DNA of 64,000 nucleotides, taken from NCBI RefSeq assembly GCF_000183725.1, contig NC_014762.1, positions 1,922,001 to 1,986,000 on the forward strand, given 5' to 3'. Source of the stretch: Sulfuricurvum kujiense DSM 16994 (GTDB lineage Bacteria > Campylobacterota > Campylobacteria > Campylobacterales > Sulfurimonadaceae). The position numbers and the translations under genes are program-made. This document shows, piece by piece, positions 37,423 to 49,520 of the stretch. The notes below the pieces were generated by a model. It was not told the origin of the DNA and did no database searches. It saw only the letters and a program-made list of their open reading frames with translations. Within the stretch, counting starts at the first letter, position 1; each line of letters starts with the position of its first letter.

Positions 37423-38472
37423 TCAAAAGAAATCCATATCGCCGCCGTCATCGGCTAGATCAGGGCGGATCAAACCGATTATCTGCTGGATGCTCAAGGA
37501 TGTCGGCTGATGAATATGGTGAATATTTTTCATCGCCATACTCTCAACAGCAAAGCGTTTGACATAGAGACTCAAATCGATACAAATCGCATCGAATAAC
37601 GAAAGTATCTGATCGGGCTTTGCCTCGAGTTTCGCCAATAAATCTTGTTCCTGTGCGATAACGTCGGAAAGCTCATCGAGACTTTTAGCCAACGGATCCA
37701 GAAAAGGGGTATAGTGAAACAAGATGTTTGAAAGTTTGCCGACATCATCCCGAACCGTCTGAATATGACGGATATCTTTGTCCACAACGTAGCGTGAAAG
37801 CTGATCGGGAATTTCTCCTAATAAATCGGTCATCTCCTCGCAATCATCACCTAGAAACACCACTTTTTCGTTCTCATTCTCTTCATCTTTCGCAAAGTAT
37901 TCTTCGAGCATTTGCGACCGCTCATCTGGATTATTTTGCGCATACAGTTTCCCCATCTGCGAATTTTTGATCTCGACGGTACGTAAATGGGCCAGCAGTT
38001 TTTCAACAATGTGTTTGTATTTGATTCGTTCTTGATTCAGTTCTTCAAAAAGTTCGGCATTGACATTTTGGGCGGATGCATCACGACATACCGGATAAAT
38101 GATTCGTATCATCTCTTCAAGATTGATAGGTTTTAGCAAAAAAGTGCTTACCCCTCGACGCATCATATCGATCAATATTTCAGGTTCATCGTGAGCGGAA
38201 ATAGCAATAATTTTTTGTTCGGGATTGATTTCTCGAATTTGGGAAATCATCTCGATTCCATTTAGACGGGGCATATTGATATCCGTGATAACAATATCAT
38301 ACGTTTCGTGATTGTACTTTTCTATCCCATCTTGACCGTTACCCGCCGTATCCACTTTGGCAAATAAAAGCTTGAAAATCTCCGTAGTTTCTGTTCTGAC
38401 TTGATCATTATCCTCAACATACAATACGGAAAGTTGCTTTGAATAGTTTTGTACATCTTTGATCGTTATCAT
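37423..38472 (-). CDS. receiver protein with unnamed helical C-terminal domain, tail DMDFF
   Basis: 349 residues with GGAGG before the ATG. The receiver (about 10-130; VEDN, IVITDINMPRLNG, LLKPIN) is followed by helices (about 150-335) and an acidic tail ending GGDMDFF. The last ~65 residues match the end of the 48069-49520 protein in pattern (DLSLYVKRF; NIHHIHQPTSLSIQQIIG). There is no DNA-binding or enzymatic domain. It lies between cheB and the CHASE kinase, so it may be a chemotaxis adaptor or phosphate sink. Confidence 0.8.
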   Translation of the reverse strand: MITIKDVQNYSKQLSVLYVEDNDQVRTETTEIFKLLFAKVDTAGNGQDGIEKYNHETYDIVITDINMPRLNGIEMISQIREINPEQKIIAISAHDEPEILIDMMRRGVSTFLLKPINLEEMIRIIYPVCRDASAQNVNAELFEELNQERIKYKHIVEKLLAHLRTVEIKNSQMGKLYAQNNPDERSQMLEEYFAKDEENENEKVVFLGDDCEEMTDLLGEIPDQLSRYVVDKDIRHIQTVRDDVGKLSNILFHYTPFLDPLAKSLDELSDVIAQEQDLLAKLEAKPDQILSLFDAICIDLSLYVKRFAVESMAMKNIHHIHQPTSLSIQQIIGLIRPDLADDGGDMDFF

Positions 38473-38548
38473 CTGTGTCCTCCAACCCCGTCCGTCATTT
38501 GATTAGCAATATGATAGACATTTAAAGTCATAAAACAATCACACCAAT

Positions 38549-39571
38549 CTATAATAGTTCCAAAATCCCTTTGGCGATATTTTGCAACGGAAGCTGTCTT
38601 TCCACCGCACCGATATCGTATGCCACTTTCGGCATACCATAAACTATACAGCTCGCCTCATCCTGACCTATTGTTCGGGAACCCGCATTACGCATGGCCA
38701 ACAGCCCGCGGGCGCCGTCTCCCCCCATTCCCGTCAAAATAACACCGATTGCATTCACCCCGGCAATTTTAGCCACAGAGTTAAACAATACATCGGCTGA
38801 GGGTCGGTGTCCGGATACTTTTTCACCGCTGCCGATTTCAACATAGTAGCGGGCGCCGGAACGGCGAACGACCATGTGATAATCTCCCGGAGCGATGAGT
38901 GCGACTCCCGGAGTAATAGAGTCACCGTTGCGTGCTTCGCGCACTTCCATGGCACATAACCCGTTCAACCTCTCAGCAAACGGACCGGTAAAGTTCGAGG
39001 GCATATGCTGTACGATAATAGTTCCCGGTGCATTACGCGGCAATCCCATCAGCACGTCTTTGAGCGCTTCGGTACCTCCGGTTGAGGCACCTATAGCCAA
39101 AATTTTGTTTGTGGTTTCAGCCAATGAAGTAGTATTGGCTTGTTGAATACTTTCGAGGGCACGCTGCCGAACACGGACGCGCGATGCCATTTTAATTTTG
39201 CTTAACAGTTCTTCCCGCATCGTCTCCACACCGTCATAAATGTGCGAATGGGGTTTCCCGACGAAATCGACTGCACCCGCTTCGAGCGCTTCAAGCGTCG
39301 TACGGGCACCGTTTTGGGTTAGAGAAGAGACCATCACGACCGGAACCGGCATATAGTGCATCAGCCTCTTTAAAAAAGTGATGCCGTCCATCCGTGGCAT
39401 TTCCACATCCAAACATACTACATCGGGTTTTAGCTCAACGATTTTATCACGTGCTACATATGCATCTGAAGCGGTTGCTACCACCTCGATAGCTGGATCA
39501 CTTTCCAAAATTTCACGCAGAACGGCACGTGCTGTTGCACTGTCATCGACGATCAATACCCGTATTGCCAT
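38549..39571 (-). CDS. cheB: chemotaxis protein-glutamate methylesterase CheB
   Basis: Removes methyl groups from (and deamidates) chemoreceptors when phosphorylated by CheA. Its 340 residues comprise a receiver (about 1-125; VDDS, VCLDVEMPRMDG) and a methylesterase domain (about 150-340) with the catalytic Ser in IGASTGGTEAL, His in QHMPSNFTGPFAERL and Asp in GMGGDGARGL. AAGGAG precedes the ATG. Twelve bases separate it from cheD. Confidence 0.97.
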   Translation of the reverse strand: MAIRVLIVDDSATARAVLREILESDPAIEVVATASDAYVARDKIVELKPDVVCLDVEMPRMDGITFLKRLMHYMPVPVVMVSSLTQNGARTTLEALEAGAVDFVGKPHSHIYDGVETMREELLSKIKMASRVRVRQRALESIQQANTTSLAETTNKILAIGASTGGTEALKDVLMGLPRNAPGTIIVQHMPSNFTGPFAERLNGLCAMEVREARNGDSITPGVALIAPGDYHMVVRRSGARYYVEIGSGEKVSGHRPSADVLFNSVAKIAGVNAIGVILTGMGGDGARGLLAMRNAGSRTIGQDEASCIVYGMPKVAYDIGAVERQLPLQNIAKGILELL

Positions 39572-39582
39572 TCGAGTTCTCC

Positions 39583-40053
39583 TTACAATTCACTGCGGGT
39601 AGCATATTTCATTAACACTTTCCCCCGTTCGAGATTAAACTGGATTTTTCGACCGCTTTGTCCTCCGATATCTTCGGCAACAATCGGTATCCGATACTCA
39701 TTTAATATTTCATGGGCAACCAGTACGTTTTTTTCACCGATCATCATGGCTTCAGAACCGCTGATTCTCATCGATGCTCCGCCAAAAATCTTTGCTTCGA
39801 GCGTTTTAGGAGTCGATCCCTTCGCCATCATCAGCTCAATCATCTTCGGTATCGAGATATTTCCGAACTTCGGTGATTGTAAGCCGTTTCCGTTCCAAAA
39901 CGGCAACAGATAATGATTCATACCGCCGATGCCGAGCTTACTGTCATACAGACAGACCGCGACACAGGAACCTAATACCGTCGAAATAGCTTGCGGTGCC
40001 TGATCGACATGAATCTGCCCGACATGGATAAAAATAGATGATCCGTGTATCAT
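39583..40053 (-). CDS. cheD: chemoreceptor glutamine deamidase CheD
   Basis: Deamidates Gln residues in chemoreceptors. The 156 residues show the CheD active site: Cys in STVLGSCVAVCLYD (about 26-39) and His in GGMNHYLLPFW (about 46-56), with the following KIFGGASM segment. Its ATG directly follows the stop of the pseudokinase gene (TAAATG). Confidence 0.95.
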   Translation of the reverse strand: MIHGSSIFIHVGQIHVDQAPQAISTVLGSCVAVCLYDSKLGIGGMNHYLLPFWNGNGLQSPKFGNISIPKMIELMMAKGSTPKTLEAKIFGGASMRISGSEAMMIGEKNVLVAHEILNEYRIPIVAEDIGGQSGRKIQFNLERGKVLMKYATRSEL

Positions 40054-40863
40054 TTAAAGTTCAATAGCATCATCAAATGATTCAAATAAAAACTCGTTTG
40101 ATCCGCATGCTTCAGAATCGGCTTGTACCGCTTGTTCCGGTATCGTTACCGTAAAAGTCACACTGGTTTCATCGGTTTCATAGTCTATTTTTCCGTCTAT
40201 CAATCCGCACAACTCTCGTGCAATGCTTAACCCAAGTCCTAAACCGTGCGATCCCTCCATCCCCTCGGCAAATCGGGTAAATACCTGCGCTTTGTATTTT
40301 ACATTCGGGCCATGCCCCCGGTTTTTTACGGTAACAATAATTTCAGAGCCTTTTTGAACGATATTAATATTGACAATAGCGTCCGGATCGCCGTAATCGC
40401 AGGCATTGGCGATAATATTTTTTAGAATCAAATAGAGCTTTTTCGGATCGGTGACGATTTTTTCTTTTAACGAACTCTCAACGATGACTGAAATATTTTT
40501 ACGCTTCAGCTTATATTTAAACTCCTCAAGAGCCTCTTCAACGAGTTTTTCAGGATTGACCGACGCATGAGTGACATCCATCATTCCGCTTTCTATTTCG
40601 GAAGCGGCCACTAGATTCTGGATACGCGATTCCAAAAGAAGCGCTTCATCGTGTGCCAGTTCAAAAATTTCCTCACGAGGGTCACCTGCCGGAGGTGTCA
40701 AATGAGGAATCATCCCTAAAAGTGCCGTCATAGGATTATTGAGTTCACTCGCTATTAAAGATAAAAAACGCGATTTAACTTTTTCACTTTCCATAAGCTG
40801 TTTGTTCAACTCAAGGATTTTCCGGCTTAAAAATGCAAATTCTTCATTCTCTTGTTCATTCAT
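40054..40863 (-). CDS. histidine-kinase-like protein lacking the phosphorylatable His
   Basis: 269 residues, no membrane segment. The dimerisation helix reads FLSLIASELNNPMTALLGM where a kinase has FLxxxSHELRTPLxxILGM, so Ser39 stands in place of His. In the ATP-binding domain the N box (ILKNIIANACDYG) and G2 box (GLGLGLSIAREL) are good, but the G1 box reads KNRGHGP, with Asn181 for the usual Asp. It may bind ATP weakly or not at all and act as a scaffold. Placed between the PAS protein and cheD with near-zero gaps. Confidence 0.85.
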   Translation of the reverse strand: MNEQENEEFAFLSRKILELNKQLMESEKVKSRFLSLIASELNNPMTALLGMIPHLTPPAGDPREEIFELAHDEALLLESRIQNLVAASEIESGMMDVTHASVNPEKLVEEALEEFKYKLKRKNISVIVESSLKEKIVTDPKKLYLILKNIIANACDYGDPDAIVNINIVQKGSEIIVTVKNRGHGPNVKYKAQVFTRFAEGMEGSHGLGLGLSIARELCGLIDGKIDYETDETSVTFTVTIPEQAVQADSEACGSNEFLFESFDDAIEL

Positions 40864-40868
40864 TGTCT

Positions 40869-42248
40869 CTACTCATCCATTGTTTTTATAATTTCCGATT
40901 CGGTTCTAAACTGTTTTAACAACGTGCCGATCCCGCCGGCTTCACCCATCAAATTTTGATTTTCTACATGGAAATTGTGCCCCATTTTTTGCATTACAAT
41001 AATCTCTTCGGACGTTTTTCCGATCAATCCCTTAAGCTGCGAAAAAATACCGCCGAAACCGACTTTCTCATCATTATTGCTAGCTGCTTCAATAATCCCG
41101 TACACTTGTATATAGCCTAAATACATCACCTGCCGTTCAAGCTGATCGAGATAGGTGCTGCTCTCTTTTATAAAACAATCCATTTTCAGCTGCAAAGCGA
41201 TCAGTTTCTCATTATACATAGAGACCAGATTGATCAAAAAACTGATGTTCTCTTTCAGCTCCGATGAAACAGATTGAACATGACATTGCAATGTCTCAAA
41301 TAAAAAATAGCTCACCGCTTCAATCTGAATATTCAATGCTGAAACCGTAAAAATGAGTTCATTAAGAGTATCGGTCAGTGATTGGACTAACGTATGGATA
41401 TGTCCGATCAATGTATCGTTCTCTTTGGCATTGACACGAACATCGCTGGCAAGAACCCCGAATGTTTCCCCGCCGTTAGCTACTTTATAGGAAGCTACCG
41501 ATGCGTTAAGTGACAGGAAAACGATATCGCGGGCAAGATGACGAAGTTCCTGTCCTTTTTCATCAAAGACGATTTTGACTTGCTTGTACATATCGACCTT
41601 CTCAAACCACCGTTCATATCGGTGCATTAAAACTTGACTGTATTCCAGCAAAAGCTTTAATTTTGTACCGAGCTGCGTATGAATCTCAGGACATACTTTT
41701 GAATTTTGATCAATGTCGGCAAGAATTTTTTTGTGTTCTCCGAGTTCAGACAAAAGTGCATCCGACATAAAATCGTCATAGCTGTTGTACCCGAGTTCTG
41801 CTAAAAGACCCATCAGCATAGGTTCGCTGGATTCCATCCCACCGCTCGCTTCGGCCATTAAAAGCTTGAAATAAAGCTCACGCACAGCAGCAAATATTTG
41901 AGAATTTGGTTTTATCCGTATCGAAATGAATCTGTCGTTAAGCGGAAAAACAGCGGCCAAAACCCAATAATACTCACCTGTTTTAGCCTGATTTTTGACA
42001 TATGCGACAACCGGCTTGTCATTGTTGATATGATCCCACAACACTTTAAATACGACTCGCGGCATATCGGGATGGCGGATAATATTATGGTACTGTCCGA
42101 TCAGTTCCTCTTTTTTGTAGCCGCTGATACGGACAAAAACTTCATTTCCCGTAAGGATCGTACTCGTACGATCGGTTATCGAGAAAAAAAGTTCGTCGTT
42201 TTCGAATTTAGCCTCTTTGCTTTCGCCAGCAGGGCTTCGATTTTCCAC
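40869..42248 (-). CDS. soluble Aer-type PAS protein with receptor-tip-like segment
   Basis: 459 residues starting at GTG 42248 behind AAGGG. The PAS domain (about 17-120) has the Aer-type IIRHPDMPRVVFKVLW, which in Aer binds FAD, so redox or energy sensing is possible. A long helical part follows. Residues about 243-276 (FLSLNASVASYKVANGGETF and on) line up with the chemoreceptor tip (LLALNAAVEAARAGEHGLGF in the neighbouring receptor), but the key EAARAGE residues are changed. No transmembrane segment. Possibly a soluble adaptor of the receptor array. Confidence 0.78.
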   Translation of the reverse strand: MENRSPAGESKEAKFENDELFFSITDRTSTILTGNEVFVRISGYKKEELIGQYHNIIRHPDMPRVVFKVLWDHINNDKPVVAYVKNQAKTGEYYWVLAAVFPLNDRFISIRIKPNSQIFAAVRELYFKLLMAEASGGMESSEPMLMGLLAELGYNSYDDFMSDALLSELGEHKKILADIDQNSKVCPEIHTQLGTKLKLLLEYSQVLMHRYERWFEKVDMYKQVKIVFDEKGQELRHLARDIVFLSLNASVASYKVANGGETFGVLASDVRVNAKENDTLIGHIHTLVQSLTDTLNELIFTVSALNIQIEAVSYFLFETLQCHVQSVSSELKENISFLINLVSMYNEKLIALQLKMDCFIKESSTYLDQLERQVMYLGYIQVYGIIEAASNNDEKVGFGGIFSQLKGLIGKTSEEIIVMQKMGHNFHVENQNLMGEAGGIGTLLKQFRTESEIIKTMDE

Positions 42249-42258
42249 TTTTAATCCC

Positions 42259-43080
42259 TTATAGTCGTTGATAGATTGAAGAACCCAAAAGTTTCAGACT
42301 CTCACGATGGGTCGTAAGCGATTCGGAGCTTCCCAGAAACAGAGGAGCCCCTTTCGGAAGAAGCGTCGTAAAACGCCCTATCAAGTCATGACGGGTAACG
42401 TCATCAAAATAGATCATTACATTTCGGCAGAATATCATATCAAACCTGTTTTTGAAAAAAAACGGATCGGTCACCAGATTGTATTTACGAAACAGAATTT
42501 TCTCTCTTAACGATGAACGGATTTGATACCGCCCCTCCTCTGTTTTTTTTGCCTCAAAGGATCGGGCAATGATCTCTTTAGACAATCCCTCTACCGCTTT
42601 GGGATCGTAGGCACCTTTCATTGCATGGGTAAGCACTTTCGACGAGATATCGGTTGCTAAAATCTTGATGTCCCATCTCTCAAAATCGCTCAAATGGTGC
42701 TGTAAAAACATCAGTATCGTATAAGGTTCTTCCCCGCTGGAACATCCGGCCGACCAGATACGGATTTTTTTTTCCTTTTTAGAAGCGATAAATGCTGGCA
42801 AATAGCTCTCCAACCACTTCCATTGGGCCCCTTCGCGAAAAAAAGAGGTGACATTAGTTGAAATCGCACTGACGAAGAATGAGAGTTCTTCACCGCTTAC
42901 ATCGGATACCAGATAATCATAATAATCCCGAAACGATTTTAACCCCAGATGATTGAGTCTCTTATTCAGCCGCCCTTTAACCAACGTGGTCTTTTGATCC
43001 GATAAAGATATTCCGACTTTTTCATAAATATACTTGCGAAACAGAGCAAATTCTTCAGGACGAAGCTCAATTTCAAGCAT
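42259..43080 (-). CDS. cheR: chemotaxis protein methyltransferase CheR
   Basis: Methylates receptor glutamates with S-adenosylmethionine. 273 residues from ATG 43080, preceded by GAGGGA and overlapping the cheA stop by 8 bases. The N-terminal helical domain (about 1-75) is followed by the SAM-binding motif IRIWSAGCSSGEEPYTI (about 105-121), ILATDIS, and FCRNVMIYFDD. Overlap with cheA suggests matched production. Confidence 0.95.
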   Translation of the reverse strand: MLEIELRPEEFALFRKYIYEKVGISLSDQKTTLVKGRLNKRLNHLGLKSFRDYYDYLVSDVSGEELSFFVSAISTNVTSFFREGAQWKWLESYLPAFIASKKEKKIRIWSAGCSSGEEPYTILMFLQHHLSDFERWDIKILATDISSKVLTHAMKGAYDPKAVEGLSKEIIARSFEAKKTEEGRYQIRSSLREKILFRKYNLVTDPFFFKNRFDMIFCRNVMIYFDDVTRHDLIGRFTTLLPKGAPLFLGSSESLTTHRESLKLLGSSIYQRL

Positions 43081-45184
43081 GTGTTCCCTCAATTACCGGA
43101 CGAAGCGCATCAACGTTCAGAATTAATGCAATGTCCCCGCTTCCTAAAATCGCTCCGCCGGATATCTCTTTGAGTTTCGCCAAAGATTTTCCGAGCGGTT
43201 TGATAACAACCTGTTGACGCCCTACCAGTTCATCGACCATGATAGCAATGCGGCCTGCTTCGGTCTCCACACATACCAAAATTCCATCCCACGGCTCAAT
43301 CCGCTCAGTCGTAGGTAGATTAAATACATCGCTAAGACGGATAATCGGAAGATGCTGTCCGCGCAACGATACAAATTCCCCTTTTTCTTTGAGAGCATGG
43401 ACGATCTCCTGTTCCGGCCGGAACGACTCAACCACACTCAGGGTAGGGATAATGTAAATTTCACCCGCCGCTTCAACCAGCATACCGTCAATAATGGCAA
43501 GTGTCAGAGGCAACACCATCGAAAAGGTTGTCCCCTCCCCCTCTTGCGATTCAATCTCTATTTTCCCTCGCAGCTTTTCAATCGACGTTTTCACGACGTC
43601 CAATCCGACACCGCGACCGGAGAGATCACTGATCGCATCGGCGGTTGAGAATCCGGGCTGCATAATCAATCCGAAGATTTGAGAATCGGTGAGATTTTCA
43701 TCCCCTGTAATAATTCCCCGTTCAATCGCTTTTTGCAATACTTTCTCTTTGTTGATTCCACGACCGTCATCGCTGACACTGATGACGATACTGCCGCTTT
43801 TATGGTAGGCACGCAAGGTAATATTCCCTTCCGTTTTTTTGCCCGCTTTCAGCCGTTCCTCACCGTCGGCTTCAAGCCCGTGGTCGATAGCGTTACGGAT
43901 AATATGGATCAACGGGTCTGAGAGGCTGTCAATCATCGTTTTATCGATCTCGGTCTCTTCTCCCAAGACATTGAGATGAAGTTCTTTCCCCGTCTTTTTG
44001 GAGGTATCGCGGACTACACGTTTCATCTTATCAAACGTATCACGAATAGCGACCATCCGCAAACTCATAACGCGATCTTGTATCCGTTTGGTGATTTTCG
44101 ATAGAGTCTCAATCGTTCGGCTGATCGATTCATCTTCGATCAAACGTATTTTCTCATTTTGAGCGATAAAGTTTTGGGCAATAACCAATTCTCCGACCGA
44201 ATCGAAAAGTTCATCGAGTTTGAAAGTATCGATTCGGATCGTCGATTTGGCCGCCGCATTCAACGTTGACGTATCCATCCCAGCCGAAGAGGTTTTTGAA
44301 GCCGTTTTCGGTGTATCCGCTACGGTTTCAATAGGAGCCGTAACGGTTTCAGGCACACTGTTTTCAGCTGCGTTTTCGATCACACGTATCGAATACTCAT
44401 GATCAAATAAGAACTCAAAATTCTCTTCAATTTCTGAAATGGATTGAGTTGTTAAAAGGATAATTCCCATTTTAGGCAAATAGTTCTCTTCACACGAGAA
44501 ATTTTCCATTACCGGAACCGACTCAAAATTGAAAACACTCTCAATCAAGACCGCTTTTTCGGCAAGAAGTCCGATAAAAATCTGATGATCGAACCCCCGT
44601 TTGTAGCTATCCGGATCCAGAGTCAATTCGATACGATAGATATGCATCCCCTCTTGTTGGGAAAGACGCATCATCTCAATCGACTGAGTTATCATATTCT
44701 CATACTGATCAGGACATTCCAATCCGAATTCCGCTGCAAGATCGGCAAATGCAGAAACAGGCTCCGCCGGAGCACTGCTCTGAACCGATCCTCCTTTTTT
44801 AGATGCGATCAGTACTTTAATCCCCTCTAAGCACTGTTCATAGTCCTCAGGCAGATCAGGGAGTGCATCAAGTTCGCATACCATCACCTCTTTGATTACA
44901 TCGACACTGTTGACAATCAATTCGAGATGAATGATCTCGATCTCCTCTTTTGTACTGCGATAATAGTCTAGAACATCCTCAAAATGGTGGACAAATTCAC
45001 CTAAACGGGTAAATCCGAAGGCATTGGCATTCCCTTTGAGGGTATGTACCCCTCGAAATATTTCGTTTAGGAGATCAAAATCGGTAGAGTTTTCTTCAAA
45101 GCGGAGAATGTCGACATCGAGTTTTTCGATAATCTCTCCCGCCTCTTCGATAAAAATGGCTTTGACTTGTTCTTGTTTAGTCAT
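43073..45184 (-). CDS. cheA: chemotaxis histidine kinase CheA (no receiver domain)
   Basis: 703 residues from ATG 45184 (the frame extends into the STAS gene). P1 HPt domain with phospho-His47 in GVHTLKGNANAFG; CheY/CheB-docking-like middle region; P3 dimerisation helices (about 320-385); P4 kinase (about 390-560) with HIIRNAIDHGLEADG and GRGVGLDVVKTSI; P5 CheW-like domain to the end (GSGDIALILNVDALRP). Campylobacterota usually have a CheA fused to a C-terminal receiver; this one lacks it, so it probably belongs to a second, separate chemosensory system. Confidence 0.96.
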   Translation of the reverse strand: MTKQEQVKAIFIEEAGEIIEKLDVDILRFEENSTDFDLLNEIFRGVHTLKGNANAFGFTRLGEFVHHFEDVLDYYRSTKEEIEIIHLELIVNSVDVIKEVMVCELDALPDLPEDYEQCLEGIKVLIASKKGGSVQSSAPAEPVSAFADLAAEFGLECPDQYENMITQSIEMMRLSQQEGMHIYRIELTLDPDSYKRGFDHQIFIGLLAEKAVLIESVFNFESVPVMENFSCEENYLPKMGIILLTTQSISEIEENFEFLFDHEYSIRVIENAAENSVPETVTAPIETVADTPKTASKTSSAGMDTSTLNAAAKSTIRIDTFKLDELFDSVGELVIAQNFIAQNEKIRLIEDESISRTIETLSKITKRIQDRVMSLRMVAIRDTFDKMKRVVRDTSKKTGKELHLNVLGEETEIDKTMIDSLSDPLIHIIRNAIDHGLEADGEERLKAGKKTEGNITLRAYHKSGSIVISVSDDGRGINKEKVLQKAIERGIITGDENLTDSQIFGLIMQPGFSTADAISDLSGRGVGLDVVKTSIEKLRGKIEIESQEGEGTTFSMVLPLTLAIIDGMLVEAAGEIYIIPTLSVVESFRPEQEIVHALKEKGEFVSLRGQHLPIIRLSDVFNLPTTERIEPWDGILVCVETEAGRIAIMVDELVGRQQVVIKPLGKSLAKLKEISGGAILGSGDIALILNVDALRPVIEGTHA

Positions 45185-45440
45185 GACATATCCAATGAAT
45201 GGTTCCATACGCCGGTGAAACGGTGGACCCTTTTTCTAAAAAAGGGATGATGAGTTCACGGCGTGTTTTTTTTAAGCTCGCTAAAAGAGCCAGAAGAGCA
45301 CTGCTTTTTAAAATCCCCCCATCTTCTATCTCAATACGATCGATATAGTCGATACGGGGACGGACGAACGCTTCAAATTCTTTAATCTCTTCCATACTCA
45401 TCGATAAATCGATGGTGAGAGCGTCTCCGTCGAATTCCAT
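45177..45440 (-). CDS. STAS-domain protein encoded next to cheA
   Basis: 87 residues; the fold pattern (DALTIDLS at the start, IEIEDGGILKSSALLALLAS in the middle) is that of anti-anti-sigma/STAS domains, where a Ser after the DxxG turn can be phosphorylated. Here SS at about 48-49 are candidates. The gene starts right after the receptor stop (TAAATG) and overlaps cheA by 8 bases. STAS next to CheA is seen in some non-standard chemosensory systems; the role is not settled. Confidence 0.78.
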   Translation of the reverse strand: MEFDGDALTIDLSMSMEEIKEFEAFVRPRIDYIDRIEIEDGGILKSSALLALLASLKKTRRELIIPFLEKGSTVSPAYGTIHWICHD

Positions 45441-47087
45441 TTAAAACTCTTTCAGATCGTTCTCAGAGAGCGGAAACACTTCATCGGCTTTCGGAGTCGC
45501 TTTGCTTTTCAATGCAGGCGGCGCTTTACGCGGTGCCGGAGCTTGCGCTTTCATCTCGATATGGTGAAGATTCATCTTTTTGATACTGTGTGCCGCGGGG
45601 GCGTCGCTCTCCATCCCTACCATTTTCGCTAAGATTCGTACGGTCTCCATCATGGAGGTCGCCTGTGCGTTCAGCTCTTCTGCCGCTGCCGCCGCCTCTT
45701 CGGAGTTTGCCGCAACTTGTTGGGTTACTTGGTCGACTTGCCCCATTGCCTGATTGATCTGCGTCATCCCCTCTGCCTGCTCTTTTCCGGCGATAGCGAT
45801 TTCTCCGATCAGGTCGGATACTTTTTTACTTTGTTCGACGATCTCTTGGAATGAGGTATGGGTCGCAAGGGCGATTTGGTTCCCCTCTTTGATCTGACCG
45901 ACTACCTCTTCGATGATATCGGAGGTCTCTTTGGCAGCCGATGCCGCGCGTTGAGCCAAATTACGGACTTCGTCCGCAACTACCGCAAACCCTAAACCGT
46001 GCTCACCGGCGCGTGCCGCTTCGACAGCCGCATTGAGTGCCAAAAGGTTGGTTTGGAAAGCGATCTGATCGATCGTTTTGATAATACCTGAAATCTTAGC
46101 CGCCGATTCGGTGATCGCGTGCATCGAATGGGAAAGCTGCTCACCCTTCTCGTATCCCGCTTTTGCCGAATCGTTCGCGTTTCTTGCCAGAATATCGGCT
46201 TGGCGTGCGTTATCGGTATTTTGGGTATTGATCGCGGTGGACTCTTCGAGTGTCGCGCTGACTTCTTCGACACTGCTTGCCTGCTCGCTCGCACCCTGGG
46301 CCAATGACGATGACGACGATGCAACCTGATCCGATGCCGACGTGATCTGCATCGCTCCGTCACGAATCGACGTAACGCTCGCGGTGATTGAACGGGTGAT
46401 TGAACGGATCAATGCCCATGCTAAAAGAATCGCAAAAAGAATCGAAAGAACCGCAACAATCATAAACATCTGTTTGTACGATGATGAGTTCTCTTTTGCT
46501 TCCGCATTAGTCTTAGCGATGACGTCTTTATTAATGTCATACACATTTTGCAAATGTTCGGCAGAAGCTTTACGTTCTGCTCGAATTACATCCAGTTGCT
46601 CGGTCATTTTATTAAATAAAAGTTCAATTTGGGCAGGATCATCGGTTTTTGCTAAAATACCTACAACTTCTTTGTGAAATTGTTCGCTATGTTTGCGCCA
46701 TGATTCATAAGTAGGTTTAAATTCTTGCCACTCTTTTGCTTCTTCCGGAGTTTGAGGAAGCGGCTCGTAAATCACCATACCTTTATCAATACGTTCAAAT
46801 GCCTCTTGCATCTCCTCAGAAGCATTCTGCATCTTCTCTTTCAATTTAGGATCACCTTTTAGACCACGGACACGGTTTTGCTGAATAGCAATCATCTGTG
46901 TGCCATTGCGGATTGTCCCGACACTGACCAACGAAGGCACACGGACGTCCCCGATTTCAATAATATCAGCTTCCCATCCGGCAGTTGCTTTAAATCCCAT
47001 AACTCCTAAAAGGATCATCGCAACAACCATTACTCCGGTAAGCAATGCTAACTTTGTTTGTAATACCATATTTTCTAACCAATTCAT
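45441..47087 (-). CDS. methyl-accepting chemotaxis protein with four-helix-bundle sensor
   Basis: 548 residues with AGGAG before the ATG. Membrane segment (about 14-34), periplasmic helical bundle (about 35-205; 4HB-MCP type), second membrane segment (about 208-230), HAMP (about 230-285), and signalling hairpin with tip FQTNLLALNAAVEAARAGEH and GFAVVADEVRNLAQRA. The C-terminal linker is basic and Pro/Ala rich and ends SENDLKEF, which could tether CheR/CheB-like enzymes in the way NWETF does in enteric receptors (inference). The only full receptor in the cluster. Confidence 0.95.
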   Translation of the reverse strand: MNWLENMVLQTKLALLTGVMVVAMILLGVMGFKATAGWEADIIEIGDVRVPSLVSVGTIRNGTQMIAIQQNRVRGLKGDPKLKEKMQNASEEMQEAFERIDKGMVIYEPLPQTPEEAKEWQEFKPTYESWRKHSEQFHKEVVGILAKTDDPAQIELLFNKMTEQLDVIRAERKASAEHLQNVYDINKDVIAKTNAEAKENSSSYKQMFMIVAVLSILFAILLAWALIRSITRSITASVTSIRDGAMQITSASDQVASSSSSLAQGASEQASSVEEVSATLEESTAINTQNTDNARQADILARNANDSAKAGYEKGEQLSHSMHAITESAAKISGIIKTIDQIAFQTNLLALNAAVEAARAGEHGLGFAVVADEVRNLAQRAASAAKETSDIIEEVVGQIKEGNQIALATHTSFQEIVEQSKKVSDLIGEIAIAGKEQAEGMTQINQAMGQVDQVTQQVAANSEEAAAAAEELNAQATSMMETVRILAKMVGMESDAPAAHSIKKMNLHHIEMKAQAPAPRKAPPALKSKATPKADEVFPLSENDLKEF

Positions 47088-47088
47088 C

Positions 47089-47580
47089 TCATTCTCCTGT
47101 TTGGGGTTTTTGAATTTGTTCTAAACTAACGAGTTCATCCGCTTCAAAAAGCTTTAAAACATCCAAAATCATCACGACGTTCTCTTCCATCTGCGCCATC
47201 GAGCAGATAAAATCGGTATCGATGTTGTTGCCGAATCTCGGCGGTTCGCTTAAGGCAGTGCTGTCAATGCTTGCCACCTCTTCGACACGGTCGACGATAA
47301 AACCGACATTGACCTTATCCACTTCGACAATGACGATTGCGGTGTGCATATCCTCATCCTTCGTCTCCATCCCGAAACGGAGGCGTGTATCCACAACAGG
47401 GATGATCGAGCCGCGCAGATTGATCACCCCTCTCATGTACTCGGGAGTTTTTGGAACATTCGTTACTTTCATAATCGCGATGATCTCTTTGATCCGATCG
47501 ATCGCAATCCCGTACTGCTCTTCTCCCAAAAAGAACGTCAGATACCGTTCCCTCCGGGACTGTAGTGTGTTTTGTTCCAT
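47089..47580 (-). CDS. cheW: chemotaxis coupling protein CheW
   Basis: 163 residues joining receptors to CheA. Recognisable blocks: YLTFFLGEEQYGIAIDRIKE, RGVINLRGSIIPVVDTRLRF (about 49-68), and GFIVDRVEEVASI. It lies between cheY and the receptor gene with 1-2 base gaps. Confidence 0.95.
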   Translation of the reverse strand: MEQNTLQSRRERYLTFFLGEEQYGIAIDRIKEIIAIMKVTNVPKTPEYMRGVINLRGSIIPVVDTRLRFGMETKDEDMHTAIVIVEVDKVNVGFIVDRVEEVASIDSTALSEPPRFGNNIDTDFICSMAQMEENVVMILDVLKLFEADELVSLEQIQKPQTGE

Positions 47581-47582
47581 AT

Positions 47583-47969
47583 TTAGACCCCCAGTACCAT
47601 TTTGATCGATTTAACCAGTTTCTCATCATTAAACGGTTTGACCATCCATCCGGTTACTCCGATCTCTTTTCCCGTCATTTTCATTGATTCCGAGCTCTCA
47701 GTCGTGAGTACGATGATCGGCTTCGTCTTATAGCGTTCATCGGTTTTGATCGCCCTAGCCAAATCCAATCCGTTCATTTCAGGCATATTGACATCACTGA
47801 TCAATAAATCAAAATTCTCCGCTCCGCTTTGCAATGCACCTAAAAGTTCCAACGGGTTCAAATACGATTTAAATTCTATTACGCCGCTCCCGATCAAGCC
47901 ATCCAATGCCAACTCTGCTGTCGCAATAACCGCTCTGGAATCATCAACAATAATTACTCTTTTTGCCAC
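47583..47969 (-). CDS. cheY: single-domain response regulator, CheY-like
   Basis: About 128 residues from GTG 47969, chosen because AAGGAG lies 9 bases upstream; an in-frame ATG at 47990 is upstream of that ribosome site. The acidic pair is VDDS, the phospho-acceptor Asp is in LLISDVNMPEMNG, switch Thr/Ser in VLTTES and Lys in MVKPFND. It is a plausible partner of the local CheA, though the motor-binding surface cannot be judged by eye. First gene of the che run after a terminator. Confidence 0.9.
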   Translation of the reverse strand: MAKRVIIVDDSRAVIATAELALDGLIGSGVIEFKSYLNPLELLGALQSGAENFDLLISDVNMPEMNGLDLARAIKTDERYKTKPIIVLTTESSESMKMTGKEIGVTGWMVKPFNDEKLVKSIKMVLGV

Positions 47970-47998
47970 TTTAATTTTCTCCTTATACATAGTTGTTA

Positions 47999-48042
47999 AA
48001 AAATCTTTCTACATAATTGTATGAATAATTATGCAGAAAGAA
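47999..48042 (-). terminator. rho-independent terminator between the receiver gene and cheY
   Basis: On the minus strand a 15-bp stem (48028-48042 with 48005-48019, one G-U pair), an 8-base loop, then TTTTTT (47999-48004). It lies after the 48069-49520 gene, so cheY and the genes behind it need their own promoter or read-through. Confidence 0.85.
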
Positions 48043-48068
48043 TGATTTTTACAGTTTCAACATGCCGT

Positions 48069-49520
48069 TTAAAAAAACTCCATATCGTTATCGTCATCCG
48101 TCTCAATCTCTTTGTTTCCGACAATCTGCTCTATCTGCATGCACGAGCTGAAAAAAGAGCTGTCCAGATAGTGAATATCCGCTGCATCCTGCAATGAAAA
48201 TATGTGTTCCCTCCATGATGTGAGATCGCTTCCCAAATGTTCAGTCAACATAACTAACATTTTGAGTTTTGAACTATCGGCGATGATTTCATCCGCATGC
48301 TCTTTCATAAACGTCCCTAAAGATGAGAGCGCGTAAGCCAGTGCGGTAAACTCAAATAAATTATTCATAGCACGGACATAAACACCCAATACGCCATCGG
48401 CGAATTGACGGATATTTTCGTGACTCGGTTCCGATTCGAGTATATTAAGCTTCTCTATCCATTCCTCATCCAGACCTTCCAAATCACGGATCTCGTCAAG
48501 AACATCTCCGCCGATCTCACGGACATAATCCACGGCACTCGTTTTCTCGACAAAACTCTGACGGAGAAGCCCCTGTTCATTCTCATCGATCGTACGAACC
48601 TCTTTTTCAATAACAGGCTCTACCACCGGGGCAACCGCTATGATGGGTTCCGCAATTGTTTGCGGTTCAGGAAGTGCCGCCTCTTTTTTCGGTTCCGAAA
48701 TTTTTTCGATCACCTTCGCCCGGGAGAGAGGTTTTACAGTTGAAGCCGCCCCTTTGTTATGCAAACGGACACAGGCTAAATTTTGGCGAATGATGCAGTT
48801 TGACTGCAAGTCATCCGCCAGCTCCTGAGCCTTCGGTTTGAGTACAATCGGATTAGCCAACTTCATCGTAACAAATATCTCTTCGAAACTCTCTTCAATA
48901 ATGATGCTCACCTGCTTTTCTTCTCGAATTCCCTGACGCATCAGCTCATAAAAAAGCTCTATCATCGGATCTACTTTTGACGAAGTGCCGGATCGGCGCT
49001 CTTCGCATCGTGAAAGGACCCATACCCCGAAATCCATCATCCCTTCGGCATCGCTGATATCAAAGATGGTTTTAAAATGGCGAACGTCGGGACAAAAAGG
49101 GTTCAACGCCTCTTTGGTAGAGAGTTTCGCGTGGATTCCGTCTTTGGAGCGCAAAAAGGCACCGAAGCTTTGCAATTTGTATCGAATCAGCTCTTTATCG
49201 ATCGGTTTGTGGACATACGCAGCAACCCCGATAGAAGCCATATTGGCTTCCATATGCGGATCGATGACGGCGGTAACGATGATAATCACCGTTTCGGGAA
49301 AACGGGCTTTGATTACTTTGGATGCTTCAAATCCGTCAAGATTTGGCATCATGACATCCATCAGGATAATATGGGGATGCCATGTTTCACACACCGTGAT
49401 CGCATCGACACCGTCAACCGCTTCTTTAAGATCAAAGCCTTCCATTTTCCGGCAAATAGCGTTGAGGACCAAACGGTTATCTTCAATATCATCAACGATC
49501 AAAAGTCTTAAATTTTCCAT
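48069..49520 (-). CDS. receiver protein with long C-terminal region, tail DMEFF
   Basis: 483 residues. Receiver (about 1-125): VDDIEDN, IILMDVMMPNLDG, VHKPID. The middle (about 140-320) is of unknown type with a Pro/Glu/Val linker at about 285-315. The C-terminal helical part (about 330-475) ends DDDNDMEFF and matches the end of the 37423-38472 receiver protein (DIHYLDSSFFSSCMQIEQIVG against its NIHHIHQPTSLSIQQIIG). There is no DNA-binding domain. A terminator separates it from cheY. Confidence 0.78.
   Translation of the reverse strand: MENLRLLIVDDIEDNRLVLNAICRKMEGFDLKEAVDGVDAITVCETWHPHIILMDVMMPNLDGFEASKVIKARFPETVIIIVTAVIDPHMEANMASIGVAAYVHKPIDKELIRYKLQSFGAFLRSKDGIHAKLSTKEALNPFCPDVRHFKTIFDISDAEGMMDFGVWVLSRCEERRSGTSSKVDPMIELFYELMRQGIREEKQVSIIIEESFEEIFVTMKLANPIVLKPKAQELADDLQSNCIIRQNLACVRLHNKGAASTVKPLSRAKVIEKISEPKKEAALPEPQTIAEPIIAVAPVVEPVIEKEVRTIDENEQGLLRQSFVEKTSAVDYVREIGGDVLDEIRDLEGLDEEWIEKLNILESEPSHENIRQFADGVLGVYVRAMNNLFEFTALAYALSSLGTFMKEHADEIIADSSKLKMLVMLTEHLGSDLTSWREHIFSLQDAADIHYLDSSFFSSCMQIEQIVGNKEIETDDDNDMEFF

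Follow-up and report, generated by a model that had tools for sequence, protein, structure and literature searches.

A family of receiver proteins with a conserved acidic, phenylalanine-ended tail in a chemotaxis cluster of Sulfuricurvum kujiense

Two receiver proteins of 349 and 483 residues, encoded in a chemotaxis (che) cluster of Sulfuricurvum kujiense DSM 16994, are by sequence members of a family, seen here in Campylobacterota, that consists of a helical domain, a short acidic linker and a terminal [ILM]-E-[FL]-F, the acidic tail being a fixed part of the domain family. A receptor of the same cluster ends in a similar peptide, DL[KR]EF, which its consensus marks as a second motif, separate from the receiver-protein tail. 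The shared helical domain with its strongly kept acidic tail, together with the similar receptor tail, makes it probable that these short ends are docking handles. The cluster lies in a stretch of 64,000 nt (contig NC_014762.1 of assembly GCF_000183725.1, positions 1,922,001 to 1,986,000; hereafter "the window", in whose own numbering coordinates are given) from a genome of 2,819,357 bases in 5 contigs. All window features described below are on the minus strand.

Results

Two receiver proteins share a C-terminal domain together with its tail

The 349-aa protein (37423..38472) combines a receiver (REC; residues 16-125) with a C-terminal helical domain (residues 183-337, 37462..37926; NIHHIH subgroup; E 1.1e-43 with a tail-free hidden Markov model, HMM) and the tail GDMDFF (37426..37443, stop codon 37423-37425). 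The 483-aa protein (48069..49520), as read from its open reading frame (ORF), Pfam, the HMM and AlphaFold 2 (AF2), comprises a receiver (7-115), an alpha/beta domain (~150-254), a disordered linker (263-300), a helical domain (319-468, 48117..48566; DIHYLD subgroup) and the tail NDMEFF (48072..48089, stop codon 48069-48071). Both receivers are of the phospho-aspartate type (Response_reg E 8.5e-26 and 4.5e-21, respectively), and D55 of the 483-aa protein is nearly invariant across 58 alignment rows. The extra alpha/beta domain between receiver and helical domain is a mostly confident AF2 prediction. The receptor, a 36H-type methyl-accepting chemotaxis protein (MCP) with a 4HB sensor domain (45441..47087), ends in the extended tail FPLSENDLKEF (45444..45476). 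A preliminary description of the window had reported the tails GDMDFF, NDLKEF and NDMEFF, and each reads as reported with a stop codon directly after it, the wider C-termini being DDGGDMDFF (349-aa protein), FPLSENDLKEF (receptor) and DDDNDMEFF (483-aa protein).

That description also took the three proteins to be otherwise unlike at this end, which has to be corrected for the receiver proteins: behind the receiver, the alignment of the two spans about 150 residues and runs to the very end of both chains (E 2e-5, two-sequence search), and they share the helical domain. Because they have the whole C-terminal domain in common as well as the tail, they are not independent cases of the tail. Among 61 genomes of the family, 18 and 11 contain relatives of the two proteins; those named are mostly Sulfuricurvum and Sulfurimonas. 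In an alignment of 28 relatives the invariant columns are a His and the terminal Phe. The helical domain is covered by no Pfam family, either in the two receiver proteins or in 28 members. A domain model built without the tail columns, searched against 1486 ORFs of 219 loci, recovered 161 distinct family members; a receiver was detectable in 137 of them, and the commonest form has a phosphorylatable receiver in front of the helical domain. The queries that had collected the relatives contained the tail, and family membership alone was decided without it. One member (L132; 1483 aa, partial match at E 6.4e-5) is probably false but was kept among the 161, as a weak genome match (G287) was kept among the 33 domain-bearing genomes.

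The final F is present in 150/161 members recovered with this tail-free model (128/129 at E<=1e-30) and an [FL]F end in 141/161, as against 76/990 and 9/990 for the non-family ORFs of these loci, a set that contains receptors and kinases. In the case of the receiver proteins, the ending is thus neither absent from orthologues nor as frequent elsewhere. In the 149 F-ending members whose chain continues for at least eight residues after the domain, I/L/M occupies position -4 in 88%, E position -3 in 82% and F/L position -2 in 94%, and D is the commonest residue at -9 to -5. Position profiles here and below come from preselected sets (final F for the domain, L[KR]EF for the receptor, E[FLIM] for the kinase); without preselection the counts are 150/161 domain members, 26/27 receptors and 31/31 kinase homologues. 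Of the 24 members in which no receiver was detected, some of them truncated or resembling decayed receivers, 21 nevertheless have the final F; this favours action in trans, which is probable for the receiver-protein tail. In three domain proteins beside CheB and CheR (L125, L129, L131), the motif occurs twice, at the C-terminus and once more internally (DDFEFF, DGFDFF, DDFAFF).

We also ran a codon-pattern census of [DE][DE]-phi-E-[FL]-F-end, with TGG also accepted as end, across 298 genomes of the phylum. The 33 domain-bearing genomes gave 32 matches against 4 reversed controls, 25 of the 32 being 3' ends of domain genes (hand count), while the other 265 genomes gave 35 against 33 (hand count). 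Twenty stretches fetched from the 67 matches contained four ORFs of at least 60 aa ending in the motif, one of which (G099) is a receiver protein with a weak domain match. The loose motif [DE][ILMF]xxF-end closes 5/1122 ORFs of other kinds, three of these being long CheD proteins. A chance pattern was considered as an explanation of the tails: the bare codon pattern is near background, with 41 matches in the host genome against 27 in the reversed control (TGG again accepted), so that the pattern alone proves little, but conservation in relatives rules chance out.

A tentative resemblance of the predicted helical domain to CheA P1

AF2 modelling of the whole 483-aa protein (58 rows) returned a receiver, the alpha/beta domain, a disordered linker, the helical domain and a tail of low confidence; the helical domain alone (60 rows) reached a mean pLDDT (local confidence score) of 85 and a pTM (global score) of 0.78. 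In the last blocks of the chain, pLDDT was 63 and 46 in the full model and 41 and 34 in the domain model. The four best structural neighbours in VIA-align were all CheA P1 domains (1i5n, Z 11.9; 2lp4, 11.6; 3kyi, 11.4; 2ld6, 11.1), with 125/128 residues superposed on 1i5n at 2.9 A; the fifth row, a designed bundle at 9.1, is also matched by a CheA P1 profile. Absence from this list does not exclude a fold. Against the PDB, the two best matches of the domain's sequence profile were designed proteins (E 0.0031 and 0.011), both again matched by a CheA P1 profile, and natural CheA P1 chains were absent from its matches up to E 1. The position of the P1 phospho-histidine (residues ~379-385, with a register taken from aligned ranges only) reads GVYVRAM, with no His. 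On the strength of the P1 domains heading the neighbours and of this missing His, we tentatively label the domain in the model a pseudo-HPt, that is, a CheA-P1-like histidine phosphotransfer (HPt) fold without phospho-histidine. Its predicted helical arrangement over ~125 residues may be that of a CheA P1 (HPt) domain, but it differs in having no phospho-His, no Hpt match in Pfam, an invariant His elsewhere and a usual place behind a receiver. That residue, His450 (codon 48171..48173 in the 483-aa gene), is the only invariant His (58/58 rows of alignment A3 and 28/28 of A1) and sits in the loop preceding the last helix of the domain.

Two CheA proteins, of G068 (L272:10526-12592) and G184 (L283:7479-9566), each contain four repeats between P1 and P3, of the types EEFGFF, DSIGFF, NIGFYDEE and NFGFFDGM, which are possibly CheY-binding repeats replacing P2. 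A match of the domain model to the CheA of G184 (L283) was considered as P1 homology and dropped, as it comprised two weak partial helical matches, one of them outside P1.

CheZ offers a second comparison, since its CheY-binding peptide in E. coli is likewise acidic with a terminal F on a helical protein; the receiver proteins, in contrast, do not match the CheZ family. No CheZ match was found in the two receiver proteins at E<=1 or in 28 domains at E<=0.1, and membership is rejected on this ground. The host genome encodes a separate CheZ-like protein, ending SEDIEALLASFGQK, that scores 246 bits against NCBIfam Phos_CheZ, under the 350-bit cut-off.

The receptor tail is a second motif

The DLKEF end is rare among the receptors of the host genome, borne by 2 of 28 (the window receptor and its paralogue at C4:1672424; an internal stop interrupts one of the 28). 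In the annotated loci, receptors beside the same small STAS-like gene nevertheless end in DL[KR]EF in 26 of 27 cases, the 27th being the second receptor of one cluster, and in 28 receptors chosen by this end the kept block extends back to FPL, giving the eleven residues FPLx[ED][DN]DL[KR]EF. The receptor and domain-protein consensus sequences differ: the receptors have K/R at -3 and E at -2, whereas the domain proteins mostly have E at -3 and F/L at -2, with K/R at -3 in 1/150 and E/D at -2 in 5/150 of the F-ending ones.

Residues 228-485 of the window receptor align gap-free to 255-512 of a Tar-like model, which places it in the 36H class. Passages of PMC2577667 and PMC7390727 describe pentapeptide-bearing receptors as having aromatics at positions 2 and 5 at the extreme C-terminus, and the former gives DWKEF (36H) and EFEKF (34H) as tethers of Geobacter receptors. 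The window tail has F at position 5 but Leu, not an aromatic, at position 2, and so falls outside this definition. It is like the NWETF-type pentapeptides (NWETF, GWEEF, DWKEF, EFEKF) in standing at a 36H receptor C-terminus, in being acidic with F at position 5 and in being kept within a che cluster; it is unlike them in the Leu, in the eleven-residue kept block and in a cognate CheR without the Gly/Arg loop. Of the NWETF-contact residues (Q182, R187, G188, G190, G194 and R197 in Salmonella numbering), the window CheR (42259..43092) keeps one in six, G194, in an alignment judged by eye. The loop was compared across 44 distinct CheR proteins: in G213, where a receptor ends DDLKEF, the CheR of L242 and the other CheR found both lack it, and in the third che cluster of the host genome (L225) a CheR with a KGKG...G loop accompanies a receptor ending NFDRY. 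The single kept contact and the persistence of DDLKEF in G213 without the loop disfavour a CheR tether in NWETF mode. The window CheB (38549..39571) has a basic stretch behind its receiver, as does the pentapeptide site modelled in CheB in the relevant part of PMC8609364, and this would make CheB the better candidate partner of the receptor tail. Recruitment of CheB, or of CheR via a changed contact, is more likely than recruitment of CheD.

Three receptor matches in the host genome deserve mention. The one at C4 994101-994538 has an internal TAG, and since its ORF stops inside the signalling domain, it is probably a broken gene; those at C4:1911129 and C4:2041793 are each flagged with one stop.

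A pseudokinase bears a similar end, and CheD is not an obligatory partner

The 269-aa protein encoded before CheD (40054..40863) is a histidine kinase by Pfam, with HATPase present, in which Ser replaces the phospho-His of the HisKA motif (FLSLIASELNNP). The relatives compared have Asn, Ser or another residue there, except for L239, which has His and no such tail. The window pseudokinase ends in GSNEFLFESFDDAIEL (40057..40104), a kept tail that takes KEF or MEF ends in other lineages: homologues at E<=1e-25 end in E[LIMF] in 31/31 cases, 11 of these in EF, and a more distant pseudokinase beside a CheD in L270 ends SFMFD. In L273 and L275, one cluster contains EDDLKEF on the receptor, TQEMKEF on the pseudokinase and DDDIEFF on the domain protein. 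The preliminary description had offered the pseudokinase as a possible partner of the tails; it is itself a tailed protein, the fourth of the cluster.

CheD adjoins the pseudokinase gene in the window (39583..40053) and 39 of 52 such kinases overall (overlapping loci counted twice). A short CheD is present in 27/33 domain-bearing genomes and was not detected in 6/33; conversely, 27 of the 28 genomes with short CheD also have the domain. This co-occurrence lends weak support to a link, because both sit in one gene cluster. CheD as an obligatory partner is ruled out by the third che cluster of the host genome, where the domain tail is present with no CheD gene, by the six genomes without a detected short CheD and by G215, where a receptor ends DDLKEF but the genome yields no CheD at E<=0.001. 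Four long CheD proteins (201-224 aa; L133, L269, L272, L283) end GVTLF, DITLF, EIELF and EIELF; the listed short CheD proteins do not end in this way.

Gene context

In Sulfuricurvum and Sulfurimonas relatives (e.g., L135, L136, L138), the usual order is a 483-type gene, CheY, CheW, the receptor, the STAS-like gene, CheA, CheR, a PAS/MCP-like gene, the pseudokinase, CheD and CheB, with a 349-type gene after CheB in some clusters. This order fits the F7_Sulfurospirillum type, which PMC9321776, in the part consulted, describes as an F7 chemosensory class of Sulfurospirillum, Sulfuricurvum and Sulfurimonas. The likeness lies in the 36H receptor and a che cluster with CheR, CheB, CheD, CheW, CheA and CheY, whereas the pseudokinase, the receiver proteins and the tails do not figure in the relevant passages of that account. 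Literature searches on chemotaxis tails, CheY binding and pseudo-HPt likewise gave nothing on these tails or this domain in the titles and abstract openings of the matches listed. A che gene lies within 3 kb of 78 of the 141 distinct members in annotated loci; another 39 have only other two-component genes at that distance, and 24 have neither.

The host genome has four domain proteins: two in the window and one each in a second and a third che cluster. The second cluster (L044) contains a domain protein, an NDLKEF receptor, CheW, CheD and a pseudokinase, with no CheR or CheB labelled in 16 kb. The third (L225, C4 960-980 kb) contains CheR, CheB, CheW, the NFDRY receptor and a domain protein ending ELEFF; it also encodes a protein with weak ParA-type matches and a 304-aa protein, without an NCBIfam match, that ends SQLDFFE. 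In the window, a 459-aa protein with a PAS domain lies between CheR and the pseudokinase (40869-42248); its weak, partial match to an MCP signalling domain (E 3.2e-4) falls under the Pfam cut-off, and it is perhaps a decayed receptor-like protein.

Discussion

We take a docking role for these tails, as first proposed from the window alone, to be plausible: they are kept, predicted to be disordered (in the receiver protein) and found on several proteins of one cluster, even though the two receiver proteins cannot be counted as separate instances. One common docking partner, the other half of that proposal, is possible; it has lost ground through the case against CheR in NWETF mode, the dispensability of CheD and the differing receptor consensus.

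The account that we prefer, while giving it somewhat less than an even chance, is that the domain proteins are pseudo-HPt receiver proteins whose tail docks in trans on CheY-like receivers, and that a separate receptor tail stands in place of the CheR/CheB tether. The receiver-protein tail would bind the alpha4-beta5-alpha5 face of a CheY-like receiver, like the CheZ tail and the FliM N-peptide, and the receiver proteins, themselves controlled by the receiver that they contain, would sequester, scaffold or present CheY-like proteins. The receptor tail would be a distinct element, standing where 36H receptors have their tether and with Leu instead of an aromatic as its second residue, and our best guess is that it tethers CheB or CheR. 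Several considerations, largely by analogy, favour CheY-like receivers as partners of the receiver-protein tail: in 24 of 29 cases the gene after a 483-type gene encodes a CheY-sized receiver (in the window, a single-REC protein at 47583..47990, directly after the 483-aa gene, is the candidate), acidic hydrophobic peptides are established ligands of CheY, and the two CheA proteins noted above carry FGFF/IGFF repeats. Both such ligands, the CheZ tail and the FliM N-peptide, bind the alpha4-beta5-alpha5 face of CheY.

A number of observations weigh against docking of a pseudo-HPt protein on CheY-like receivers. The analogy with known ligands is loose: FliM carries its peptide internally, and CheZ has LGF as its last residues. 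Eleven of the 161 members lack the final F (6 of these stop within three residues of the domain), and for 24 of the 141 members the surrounding 3 kb contain neither a labelled che gene nor a labelled two-component one. As to the fold, Z scores of 11.1-11.9 are within the range that helical bundles reach by arrangement alone, Foldseek gave no match of the domain to the PDB at E<=0.001, hhalign found no significant similarity to CheA P1 (prob 0.8, E 0.07), and Pfam Hpt had no match at E<=0.1 in 28 members. The pseudo-HPt label also leaves the invariant His450 unexplained, and the AF2 models were computed without a partner chain.

The receptor tail may, alternatively, have nothing to do with the other tails and be the ordinary CheR/CheB tether of F7-type 36H receptors, an explanation that we regard as quite possible if short of probable. 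Its position, the receptor class and its likeness to the DWKEF and EFEKF reported in part of PMC2577667 all point this way, as does a consensus distinct from that of the domain proteins; a CheR without the NWETF contacts, the Leu at position 2 and the near-identical end of the same-cluster pseudokinase in several lineages do not. In another explanation, receptor, pseudokinase and receiver-protein tails would all dock on one adaptation protein (CheB, CheR or CheD), for which pseudokinase and receiver proteins would compete with the receptor. The three tails found together in L273 and L275, with an aliphatic residue at -4 and F at -1 throughout, the adjacency of pseudokinase and cheD genes, the prevalence of short CheD in domain-bearing genomes and a CheB whose basic stretch resembles the site modelled in PMC8609364, as far as that part of the source goes, would all suit such a hub. 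We nonetheless find it doubtful, as the consensus sequences diverge at -3 and -2, the domain tail occurs without a nearby CheD (L225) and in the six genomes with no short CheD detected, tailed domain proteins are also found away from che genes, and the L270 pseudokinase beside CheD ends SFMFD; a shared gene cluster alone, moreover, predicts the co-occurrence.

Two further explanations concern the tail by itself. It might fold back on its own receiver or helical domain as a control in cis, which the presence of a receiver in 137/161 members would allow and for which an acidic hydrophobic tail could conceivably sit on the receiver's output face; given that 21 of the 24 members with no receiver detected keep the final F (a few being truncated or with seemingly decayed receivers) and that AF2 confidence in the tail is low in both models, we think this improbable. 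Least likely of all, and by our estimate very improbable, the F-ending tails would be turnover signals for a protease or adaptor: hydrophobic C-termini can indeed be degrons, but here conservation extends beyond the hydrophobic positions to the acidic run and the E at -3, the tail is tied to one domain family, and the codon pattern is not enriched in genomes without the domain.

Conclusions

The choice of enzyme for a given receptor is made by C-terminal docking peptides, of which the NWETF and CheZ types are, to our knowledge, the understood ones. The tail observation made on the window is real in the sequences compared here and, for the receiver proteins, stronger than the window's sequence alone had shown: a large family without a Pfam name bears an almost invariant terminal peptide, and its neighbours include a similarly ended dead kinase and receptors in which the tether has moved away from the form that binds CheR. 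On a broader and, in our judgement, unlikely view, Campylobacterota would possess a layer of dead kinase parts (the pseudo-histidine kinase and the receiver–pseudo-HPt proteins) that, together with the receptor, carry acidic C-terminal peptides, mostly F-ended. These would compete for one or a few sites of docking on CheB or CheY-like receivers, and their competition, not phosphotransfer, would govern adaptation and how much CheY is available. Finding the partner would yield, for free-living Campylobacterota, a rule by which chemosensory wiring can be recognised from sequence, as well as a case in which to test peptide competition as a mechanism of adaptation.

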